Below are positions 11,719 through 14,830 of a DNA stretch of 64,000 bases, in pieces. Source of the stretch: Arthrobacter gandavensis (lineage in GTDB: Bacteria; Actinomycetota; Actinomycetes; Actinomycetales; Micrococcaceae). A model generated the notes under the pieces. That model was given only the letters and a program-made list of their open reading frames with translations, was not told where the DNA came from and ran no database searches. The translations under genes and the position numbers were made by a program. The stretch is from positions 520,226-584,225 of the forward strand of contig NZ_JADKYW010000005.1 of assembly GCF_015355785.1 (NCBI RefSeq), read 5' to 3'. The first letter of the stretch is position 1, and the number at the start of each line of letters is the position of its first letter.

Positions 11719-13305
11719 TTACGGACTGATTTCCAGCCGGTGGATGGACTCCGGTTCAGCGCCGAAGCGCCGAAGGACGGCAGTTACTGCCTCTTCATGC
11801 TCGTCGTCCACCGCCGCACTCACCCGCGTCCTGTCCTCGAAGTCCAGCTTCCGCACGTCGGACCGAAAAACCTCGGTGCGGACCTGGCCGGTGTAGACCG
11901 TGGTCTCCGCGAGTTCAAGGGACCGGGCCCCGGCCAGCAGCAGGGCATCGCGCAGGCCGTCGATCCTTTCCGTGTTGACGGCCGCGCTGATCAGATGCCG
12001 CGGCGCGCCCGGCCGGGCCGCATTCGGCCGCGGAGCTTCAGCAGCGCGTCCGCTGGTTGTCGGGCGGGCGGTGACCCCGCTGAGCGAATAGGCGGACTGG
12101 CCCTGCTGCACCATGTCCAGGGAATCCTGTTCCGGACCCGGCTCGCGCAGGCCGAGGGTCCTGCTGATCAAGGCGGCGGCCAGCCAGCTGAGCACGAACG
12201 AGAACGCCACGACGCAGACGACCGCCACTACCTGGTGCCACAGCAGGATCCCGCCGCCGCCGGCGAACAGGCCGTCCGCGCTAACCGGATTCACCGCACT
12301 GTCCGCGAAAAAGCCCAGCAGCAAGGACCCGCTGAGGCCTCCAACGAAGTGGACAGCGATCACGTCCAGGGCGTCGTCGTAACGCAGAAGGTGCTTGAGC
12401 CGGACCGCAAAACAGCACGCGCAGCCGGCGATCAGCCCGATCAGCAGAGCCGATCCAGTACTGACGTATCCGGCACAGGGGGTGATTGTGGCCAGGCCGG
12501 CGACGGCTCCGGACACCGCTCCGACAAGGGTGGAGTGCCCGCTGGTCAGGCGTTCGACGATCAGCCAGGTGACCATGGCGGAGCTGCCGGCCACATGGGT
12601 GTTAATCAGCGCCTGGGCGGCGATGTCGTTGGCCTGCAGCCCGTCTCCTGCGTTGAACCCGAACCAGCCGAACCACAGGATGCCCCCGCCAACCAGCATC
12701 AGGGGGAGGTTGTTGGGGGACGTCCTGAGCCTGGGCCATCCCCGGCGGCGTCCCACAACCAGGAGGACAGCCAGTGCGGCCGCGCCGGCGGAAGCATGAA
12801 CTACCAGCCCGCCGGCCCAGTCCTGCGCGCCCAGCTGCGACAGCCATCCCCTGGGGTGCCAGAGCCAGCGGGCAACCTGCGGGTACACCGCTATCGAGAA
12901 GACCACCAGGAAAACGGTCCAGCCGGCGAACTTCAGCCGCCCGGCAGTCGCACCGGTAAGCAGCGCCGGCGTGATGACGGCGAACATCATCTGGTAGGCG
13001 ACAAAGGCCAGGGCCGGAATTGTCACCCCGGCCGCAACAGTGTGGAACTGCGGCGTATCCACGTTGACCAGCGCGAAGGCATCAAACTCTCCCAGGACAG
13101 AATTGCCCTTGTTGCTGAAGGCCAGGGTGTACCCCACCAGCACCCAGGTGAGGGTGATGATGCCCAGCGGAATAATGTTCTGCATCATCATGGTCAGCAC
13201 ATTCCGCACCGGGACCATGCCGCCGTAGAACAGGGCCAGGCCGGGCGTCATGAACAGCACCAGCCCCGCACAGACCAGGACCCAGGCGGTATCTGCGCCG
13301 TTCAT
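11719..13305 (-). CDS. amt: Ammonium transporter fused to a P-II-like C-terminal domain
   Basis: A 528-residue protein. Residues 1 to about 405 are an Amt/Mep channel: FMTPGLALFYGGMV, the ammonium-site Asp in DWAGG followed by the first pore His in GGLVVHASAG, GWFGFNAG, and the second pore His in VIAVHFVGG. After a Pro/Arg/Ala-rich linker, residues about 437-528 resemble GlnB/GlnK: LISAAVNTERIDGLRDALLLAG, then TEVFRS, and DFEDRTRVSAAV. By eye the T-loop Tyr-51 position is Arg and the C-terminal nucleotide loop (GDGKIF) is absent, so this P-II-like part is not modified like GlnB and may not bind ATP normally. ATG at 13305 overlaps the stop of a short upstream frame (ATGA). It probably mediates regulated ammonium uptake. 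Confidence 0.88.
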   Translation of the reverse strand: MNGADTAWVLVCAGLVLFMTPGLALFYGGMVPVRNVLTMMMQNIIPLGIITLTWVLVGYTLAFSNKGNSVLGEFDAFALVNVDTPQFHTVAAGVTIPALAFVAYQMMFAVITPALLTGATAGRLKFAGWTVFLVVFSIAVYPQVARWLWHPRGWLSQLGAQDWAGGLVVHASAGAAALAVLLVVGRRRGWPRLRTSPNNLPLMLVGGGILWFGWFGFNAGDGLQANDIAAQALINTHVAGSSAMVTWLIVERLTSGHSTLVGAVSGAVAGLATITPCAGYVSTGSALLIGLIAGCACCFAVRLKHLLRYDDALDVIAVHFVGGLSGSLLLGFFADSAVNPVSADGLFAGGGGILLWHQVVAVVCVVAFSFVLSWLAAALISRTLGLREPGPEQDSLDMVQQGQSAYSLSGVTARPTTSGRAAEAPRPNAARPGAPRHLISAAVNTERIDGLRDALLLAGARSLELAETTVYTGQVRTEVFRSDVRKLDFEDRTRVSAAVDDEHEEAVTAVLRRFGAEPESIHRLEISP

Positions 13306-13415
13306 GGCGTGCCTTCGCCGTACAGGGTCCTCGCGGCTCTCCCCGTCCGGCCCGGTACGGTCGCGTCCCGGCGGGCGGTTTTAGGCGCACCCCGGCGGAT
13401 GAGAAGTTCGAGCAT
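13302..13415 (-). CDS. Possible 37-residue leader peptide translationally coupled to amt
   Basis: ATG at 13415 with GGGGAT just upstream opens a 37-residue basic frame (starts MLELLIRRGAPKTARRDA, ends LYGEGTP). Its TGA overlaps the amt start as ATGA. Ten or so Arg/Lys residues and no hydrophobic helix. The frame may be a coupling leader or a chance frame in GC-rich DNA. The amt start has no strong ribosome-binding site of its own, which favours coupling. Confidence 0.35.
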   Translation of the reverse strand: MLELLIRRGAPKTARRDATVPGRTGRAARTLYGEGTP

Positions 13416-13542
13416 GTTGATCCCCGCTTCCAACTCGTGTCCCGCATGAGTGGTGACTCCGGAGGTCCATGAGTCTGGAGGGGTGTCTCCGGCGGATCGA
13501 GTCTAGCGAGGCGGCTCCGGAAGGCGGAAGATCCGGGCGCGC

Positions 13543-13603: not shown

Positions 13604-14830
13604 CTAGTTGGCGCTGGCTCCGGTAACACCGTGCGGGTCGATGACGTACTTCCTGGCCGCACCGGAGTCGAACTCCCGATAAGCCTGGGGGGCATCGTCG
13701 AGGCGGATCGCGGTGGCGTTCACCGCCTTGGCAATCTGCACCCTGTCATTGAGGATGGCCATCATCAGGTCCCGGTTGTACTTCATCACCGGACACTGGC
13801 CGGTGGTAAATGACAGCGACTTCGCCCAGCCGGTGCCCAGGCTCAGCGAGAGCGAACCGACCTTCGCTGCCTCGTCGATTCCGCCCGGGTCGCCGGTAAC
13901 GTAGAGGCCCGGGATGCCCAGGGCCCCGCCGGCGGCGGTGATGCTCATCAGGGAGTTCAGAACCGTGGCCGGCGCTTCGTGCCCTGCGTCGTGTCCGTGG
14001 CCGCGGGCCTCGAATCCCACCGCATCAACACCGCAGTCAACCTCCGGCACGCCCAGGATCTGTTCAATCTGGTCCCTGGGATCACCCTTGGACACGTCCA
14101 CTGTCTCGCAGCCGAAACTGCGTGCCTGCGCCAGCCGGTCCTCGTTCAGGTCACCCACTATGACGACGGCGGCGCCCAGGAGCTGTGCGCTTGCGGCCGC
14201 TGCCAGCCCCACCGGGCCTGCGCCGGCCACGTACACCGTGGAGCCGGTCCGCACGCCGGCAGTAAAGGCTCCGTGGTAGCCGGTAGGGAAGATGTCGGAG
14301 AGCATGGTCAGGTCCATGATCTTTTCCATCGCCTGGTCAGAGTCCGGGAACTTCAGCAGGTTCCAGTCCGCATAGGGCACCAGGGCGTATTCCGCCTGGC
14401 CGCCCACCCAGCCGCCCATGTCCACGTAGCCGTAGGCACTTCCGGGACGGTCCGGGTTCACGTTCAGGCAAATGCCGGTTTTGCGTTCCTTGCAGTTCCG
14501 GCAGCGGCCGCAGGAGATGTTGAAGGGGACGGAGACCACGTCACCAACCTTGATGAATTCAACATCTGGCCCGGTTTCCACCACCTCGCCGGTGATCTCG
14601 TGGCCGAGGATGAGGTTCGCGGGCGCGGTGGTGCGCCCCCTGACCATGTGCTGGTCAGAACCGCAAATGTTGGTCGTCAGAACTTTCAGGACAGCCGCGT
14701 GGGGCAGTTTCCGGCCCACGTTGGCCGGGTTGACACCCGGGCCGTCCTTCAGCTCGAAGGTGGGGTAGTCGATGTCCTGGACTTCCACGACACCAGGCTC
14801 AATATAAGCAACTGCTCGGTTACCGCTCAT
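13604..14830 (-). CDS. fdhA: Formaldehyde dehydrogenase, glutathione-independent
   Basis: A 408-residue zinc medium-chain dehydrogenase that oxidises formaldehyde with NAD+ without added thiol, a detoxification role in the cytosol. It has the catalytic-zinc region NICGSDQHMVRGR and GHEITGEVVE, the structural-zinc cysteines in CGRCRNCKERKTGIC, and the nucleotide-binding AGAGPVGLAAAASAQLLGA. The family-typical insert DAVGFEARGHGHDAGHEAPA separates it from ordinary alcohol dehydrogenases. ATG at 14830 has GAGGAA 5-6 nt upstream. It has its own terminator and no obvious operon partner. Confidence 0.93.
   Translation of the reverse strand: MSGNRAVAYIEPGVVEVQDIDYPTFELKDGPGVNPANVGRKLPHAAVLKVLTTNICGSDQHMVRGRTTAPANLILGHEITGEVVETGPDVEFIKVGDVVSVPFNISCGRCRNCKERKTGICLNVNPDRPGSAYGYVDMGGWVGGQAEYALVPYADWNLLKFPDSDQAMEKIMDLTMLSDIFPTGYHGAFTAGVRTGSTVYVAGAGPVGLAAAASAQLLGAAVVIVGDLNEDRLAQARSFGCETVDVSKGDPRDQIEQILGVPEVDCGVDAVGFEARGHGHDAGHEAPATVLNSLMSITAAGGALGIPGLYVTGDPGGIDEAAKVGSLSLSLGTGWAKSLSFTTGQCPVMKYNRDLMMAILNDRVQIAKAVNATAIRLDDAPQAYREFDSGAARKYVIDPHGVTGASAN

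Follow-up and report, generated by a model that had tools for sequence, protein, structure and literature searches.

An ammonium transporter fused to a degenerate PII-like domain in one group of Arthrobacter: a possible tethered brake on its own channel

The gene described here lies in a 64,000-nucleotide stretch of the Arthrobacter gandavensis genome (the window) and encodes an Amt ammonium channel that carries, behind a flexible linker, a PII-derived C-terminal domain. The parts and the Amt-GlnK partnership are textbook knowledge; what is new is a variant of the Amt-GlnK system in which the regulator is covalently attached and has lost the residues through which PII proteins sense metabolites. 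Based on the pattern of conserved and lost residues, we propose, with a probability of about 0.4, that the tethered, effector-blind domain would act as an intramolecular brake or cap, keeping free GlnK off the channel, whose openness would depend on the channel itself and not on nitrogen signals in the cell. The gene and its parts, in window coordinates, are as follows.

11719..13305, minus strand: whole fused gene (Amt channel, linker and PII-like domain), 528 amino acids, from the reading of the ORF and family matches.
12088..13305, minus strand: Amt core and C-terminal region, residues 1-406, from PF00909, TIGR00836, the AmtB alignment and 23 orthologues.
12643..12645, minus strand: D221, at the AmtB Ser219 position in the periplasmic ammonium site.
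11998..12087, minus strand: flexible linker, residues 407-436.
11722..11997, minus strand: PII-like domain, residues 437-528 (b1 a1 b2 T-loop b3 a2 b4, without canonical B-loop and without C-loop), from profile, fold and selection.
11863..11865, minus strand: R481, equivalent to PII Arg47 in the T-loop.
11851..11853, minus strand: R485, at the PII Tyr51 position, the modification site in other PII proteins.

The channel itself is a conventional member of its family in most respects. Residues 7-406 match PF00909 with 337.7 bits (curated cutoff 23.2), and the Amt part scores 386 against TIGR00836 (cutoff 343). In the alignment to E. coli AmtB, residues F108, W149, D162, H170, F217 and H319 of the fused channel correspond to F107, W148, D160, H168, F215 and H318, and when 23 distinct fused copies were compared with 54 unfused Amt rows and AmtB, the equivalents of F107, D160, H168, F215, D313 and H318 were invariant in the fused set. 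The twin pore His, D160 and the Phe gate are thus conserved throughout, as expected from a preliminary description of this gene, which had reported an ammonium-site Asp and a pore His pair. The first pore His (H168) is replaced by Glu in five unfused Amts (L105, L107, L108, L113 and L114), three of which are second copies in tandem amt-glnK arrays.

Two features set all fused copies apart from the unfused channels. The first is at the S1 site, where the Phe and Trp (F107 and W148) are retained and the complete site is lost through the replacement of Ser219 by Asp in 23/23 fused copies, as against Ser in 53 of the 54 unfused Amts. As the S1 site is not universal among Amt/Mep/Rh proteins (NeRh50 retains the Phe alone), this does not bar the fused channel from the family. 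The Asp places an unusual charge, common to every fused channel, at the site of periplasmic ammonium recruitment. The second is in the C-terminal 'H.E..Y' motif, whose His has become Gln in all 23 fused copies and whose Glu has become Gln, Ala or Ser. The Amt C-terminal region with the 'H.E' motif becomes ordered when GlnK binds.

Annotation at the Pfam level overlooks the C-terminal domain: residues 436-528 alone matched no Pfam family, and the best orthologue reached 19.1 bits against PF00543, below the gathering cutoff of 25. More sensitive comparisons agree on its identity. The single domain sequence, searched against the PDB with phmmer, found PII chains (best E 2.2e-4), in an alignment that is gap-free across the T-loop bar one residue; a profile of 17 orthologues found PII in the PDB with E 5.9e-6; and hhalign matched the domain to free Micrococcaceae GlnKs at 96.3 % and E 1.7e-9. 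AlphaFold2, given the fused orthologues as sole input, predicted a b-a-b-b-a-b fold with a mean pLDDT of 90.5, and all 50 Foldseek matches listed against the PDB were PII proteins, with GlnZ, GlnK and the M. tuberculosis PII among the first (a full-length AlphaFold2 model from 22 close sequences had a pLDDT of 48 and was discarded). Homology and predicted fold together confirm that the domain is PII-derived. The earlier view of a GlnB-like domain of about 92 residues is therefore upheld, both in its T-loop alignment, apart from the one-residue gap, and in the PII topology predicted for the isolated domain; the HMM comparison it had called for succeeded with the profile and hhalign and fell short of the Pfam P-II cutoff. 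That the PII match is due to chance, or that the domain is ferredoxin-like and unrelated to PII, as the silence of Pfam and a best NCBIfam P-II match of E 0.058 might suggest, is very improbable, given that the top profile and fold matches are almost exclusively PII and that the amt-then-glnK order in unfused relatives predicts precisely such an arrangement. AlphaFold2 models the T-loop as an extended beta hairpin, as has been described for it when bound to AmtB (PMC10433425). Because Amt is a trimer, it is plausible that the fused domain is homotrimeric as well.

A tally in PII numbering over the 23 distinct fused copies shows which functions of a PII protein could have survived. Arg47, Asp54 and an aromatic residue at position 46 are present in every copy, Thr43 in 21 and Glu44 in 19. 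Gln39, Thr29, Gly35, Gly37, Gly41, Gly87-Asp88-Gly89 and Arg103 are replaced or missing in all 23, Thr83-Gly84 is also replaced or missing, and the letters opposite Lys90 and Arg101 vary with gap placement. The domain is 19 residues shorter, and as the predicted chain ends after b4, the C-loop is absent; the preliminary description had recognized the loss of this nucleotide-binding loop, to which that of Gln39 and of the B-loop G87-D88-G89 can now be added. The ATP/ADP/2-oxoglutarate site (Q39, T29, G87-K90, R101, R103) is thus not preserved, and with the Gln39, B-loop and C-loop sites gone, the fused domain is not expected to bind ATP, ADP or 2-oxoglutarate as known PII proteins do.

Position 51, as had been noted, is Arg (23/23 copies), and a modifiable Tyr is therefore lacking, although not all PII proteins are modified. 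In the E. coli complex the T-loop of GlnK enters the pore, where Arg47 blocks AmtB conduction; Tyr51Ala GlnK still binds to and is released from AmtB under the control of effectors, and Arg47Ala GlnK still binds AmtB (PMC4274968). It follows from the first of these mutants that the loss of the effector site outweighs that of Tyr51, and from the second that conservation of Arg47 alone is no proof of plugging. The proposed covalent silence of the domain stands in so far as Tyr51 is replaced, but the emphasis on this residue was misplaced, since effector control survives Tyr51Ala (PMC4274968) and no GlnD was seen in the genus; the decisive loss is that of the ATP/ADP/2-oxoglutarate site. Set against the lost ligand sites, the conservation of Arg47, Asp54 and Thr43-Glu44 suggests that residues needed to plug the channel have been kept and those needed for release have gone.

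The domain is nevertheless maintained. Compared across 22 orthologues, the channel has the lowest pN/pS (0.148), the PII-like domain an intermediate one (0.30) and the linker the highest (0.63). In one strain, L038, the protein is longer by about 55 residues, every one of them in the linker. From these values and this insertion, we conclude that the PII-like domain is under purifying selection and that the tether is free to vary. The domain evolves at about twice the rate of the channel, and its T-loop, fixed residues aside, is its least constrained stretch.

Each of the 17 genomes sampled from the genus (soil bacteria, Arthrobacter of the citreus/luteolus/gandavensis group) carries the fusion, which is therefore not a sequencing error. 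A genome collection held 15 fused loci, all in named Arthrobacter records that overlap partly with these 17 genomes; the named carriers include A. koreensis, A. citreus, A. luteolus, A. gandavensis, A. pullicola and A. gallicola. No fusion was found outside the genus in a family sample of 32 genera or in an order-level search of 396 genomes, nor, apart from the genome of the window itself, in a phylum sample of 331 genomes (E 1e-11), and no fused domain was found on viral contigs or plasmids. The PII matches outside the genus were ordinary GlnKs (standalone at the loci read) or unfused Amts; long open frames around some GlnK matches were considered as further fusions and rejected, since at the loci read glnK was in a different frame from amt, or alone. 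Within the Actinomycetota samples searched, the fusion is thus restricted to one Arthrobacter group. In the same searches, an actinobacterial family (f34; G615, G630, G645, G657, G679 and others) gave only weak PF00543 matches of about E 1e-7 to 1e-11, which suggests that PII proteins are divergent in that family.

In the tree, the fused channels group together in a single clade (100/100 support), which does not fall within the amts of other Micrococcaceae. glnK lies directly downstream in 40 of the 54 unfused Amt rows, most Micrococcales amt-glnK pairs share a 4-nt ATGA overlap, and the fused domain starts where glnK would start. Most likely, then, the fusion arose from an amt-glnK gene pair by loss of the amt stop, for which a small indel before the ATGA overlap would presumably suffice. 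L109, the unfused Amt closest to the fused clade in the tree, lacks an adjoining glnK; immediately downstream of it come a urea transporter and an apparent urease cluster (L141 3448-9157, G302). As L109 and the fused clade are both long branches, its placement is unsure.

Conventional partners are encoded in the same genome, which has three Amts: the fused gene, a third amt (G000:C8:869178) and, as the preliminary description had proposed to check, a separate amt-glnK pair (G000:C9). This pair sits between ftsY and ffh (L136 4575-9601), and ffh, not glnD, comes directly after its glnK; the usual actinobacterial order is amt-glnK-glnD. In the genus, GlnD gave sub-threshold matches alone in 13/13 genomes and no full match; the best candidate in the genome of the window was set aside as an internal segment of a 493-aa ORF resembling a CCA/poly(A) polymerase-type enzyme. 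GlnD is likely absent from the genus, which falls short of proof because the control, C. glutamicum, was likewise below the GlnD cutoff in the same search.

Gene order is conserved around the fused gene, whose neighbours are fdhA, thioredoxin and cystathionine beta-synthase genes, and three conserved elements lie on its upstream side.

13302..13415, minus strand: short ORF ahead of amt, of 37 aa in this genome, with a TGA stop that overlaps the start codon of amt (ATGA) and a frame preserved in 15/16 loci.
13421..13434, minus strand: conserved GTTGGAAGCGGGGA, GTTGGAA(A/G)CGGGGA across loci, just before the start of the leader ORF, from locus comparison.
13604-14830, minus strand: glutathione-independent formaldehyde dehydrogenase (TIGR02819), the upstream neighbour in 15/15 relatives (fdhA).

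The leader ORF ranges from 17 to 59 aa and ends in an ATGA or GTGA overlap with amt in 15 of 16 loci (L032-L046; not seen in L038); since its length changes by multiples of three, this leader is probably translated and its translation coupled to that of amt. A tie of the formaldehyde dehydrogenase neighbour to methylamine-type substrates is conceivable. A search for promoter or terminator consensus sequences found none, and an Rfam search gave no match. Using what we take to be the GlnR box consensus (gTnAc-n6-GnAAc), a GlnR-like box with 0-1 mismatch was present at the amt-glnK promoter in 8/9 genomes of the genus, mostly at about -145. The fused amt promoters had no such box beyond chance (one of 16 with one mismatch, equalled by 11 % of shuffles). 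Judging by this difference between the two promoters, the gene for the fused channel probably does not belong to the nitrogen-starvation genes.

How would such a protein work? In the mechanism we favour, the degenerate GlnK-type domain would dock onto its own Amt trimer from the cytoplasmic side, its T-loop, with the Arg47 equivalent, would insert into the pore exit in the manner of GlnK, and the tethered domain would lower or gate flux and exclude free GlnK. Occupancy would then depend on substrate or on the C-terminal region of the channel, not on the nitrogen status of the cell. We prefer this brake or cap because the pore-entry features are fixed, the metabolite-release features are lost and the channel is under strong selection; the acceptor Asp (AmtB D313) and the pore are intact in 23/23 copies, and the tether is long, flexible and tolerant of the insertion of about 55 residues. 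As the channel is not shut down by transcription, having no GlnR-like box, a brake of its own could be useful to it. Counted against a brake are the loss of the 'H.E' motif, in the very region that is ordered upon GlnK binding, the loose constraint on the T-loop outside its fixed residues and the absence of glnK next to L109. A release step must also exist, since a permanently plugged channel would be useless. One specific form of this idea, which we hold to be somewhat doubtful, is a self-regulating channel whose attached PII domain, blind to energy and 2-oxoglutarate, gates through its fixed T-loop finger; the signal would most likely be substrate occupancy at the ammonium site changed to Asp.

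It is also possible, if unlikely, that the tethered domain fills the docking site without blocking flux and so makes an always-open Amt that is immune to GlnK. Such a shield would make sense of a domain devoid of effector-sensing residues in genomes that also encode an ordinary GlnK, on a gene apparently outside the GlnR regulon; but it would need neither the invariant Arg at the position that blocks the pore nor the extended shape predicted for the T-loop, and loss of 'H.E' might by itself prevent GlnK binding. We consider it still less likely that the PII part has no signalling role and is kept for the stability of the Amt trimer or for protection of the C-terminus. The loss of ligand sites and C-terminus and the twofold faster evolution would fit a remnant of this kind, from which one would expect a shortened or dropped T-loop; instead, T-loop residues away from the core fold (position 46, Arg47 and position 51) are invariant in all 23 copies. 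Finally, a transceptor, in which ammonium binding by the channel is relayed through the PII-like domain to another protein, seems improbable: the invariant Asp for Ser219 and the changed C-terminal region do distinguish this channel, and Amts can turn into sensors, as Ks-Amt5 with its histidine kinase demonstrates (PMC12918730), but both pore histidines are retained and the locus, with its fdhA, thioredoxin and cystathionine beta-synthase genes, offers no candidate partner.

Compared with the tethered brake proposed here, the closest known system is GlnK-AmtB itself (E. coli 2NUU/2NS1; actinobacterial amt-glnK(-glnD)), with the same two families in the same order and 1:1 ratio, the T-loop Arg47 and the pore residues D160, twin His and D313. 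The differences are that the fused protein is one polypeptide, so that the tether is permanent, as had been supposed; that its PII part is without Q39, the B-loop and C-loop effector residues and Tyr51; and that it has Asp at S219 and neither a GlnR-like box nor the C-terminal H.E motif. Ks-Amt5 and the 644-661-aa Amts 8qj3/8qpf likewise have an Amt core followed at the C-terminus by a regulatory or signalling domain in the cytoplasm; the domain here differs in being PII-derived and in having no catalytic output. We take 8qj3/8qpf to be Amt-diguanylate cyclases; by alignment, the core of the fused channel is nearer to ordinary Amts (AfAmt1, AmtB) than to these fused ones. PII-like proteins of the wider superfamily share the PII fold with altered loops or ligand sites, but are free, whereas this domain is fused to its presumed target. 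A normally separate regulator is also tethered to a transporter in LacS, with its EIIA-Glc-like domain, and in CBS-domain channels (PMC10710835); unlike the fused domain of LacS, which stays phosphorylatable, the one described here has lost its known inputs. An open-access literature search found no report of an Amt-PII fusion, and other phyla may have cases that are unpublished or go by another name. Amt plus P-II architectures are probably listed for other phyla in domain databases, and we make no claim that an Amt-PII fusion as such is unprecedented.

Plugging of AmtB by GlnK has been proposed as the ancestral role of PII, and effectors and modification complicate its study. A fusion of the two partners at a natural 1:1 ratio, with the T-loop finger kept and the effector sites lost, would separate the 'plug' from the 'sensor' in one small protein, and is suited to transport assays and cryo-EM. 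As the domain lies below Pfam detection, similar fusions may lie unseen in databases. If the self-regulating reading is true, a PII-regulated channel would have been turned into one that regulates itself by means of a covalent regulator.
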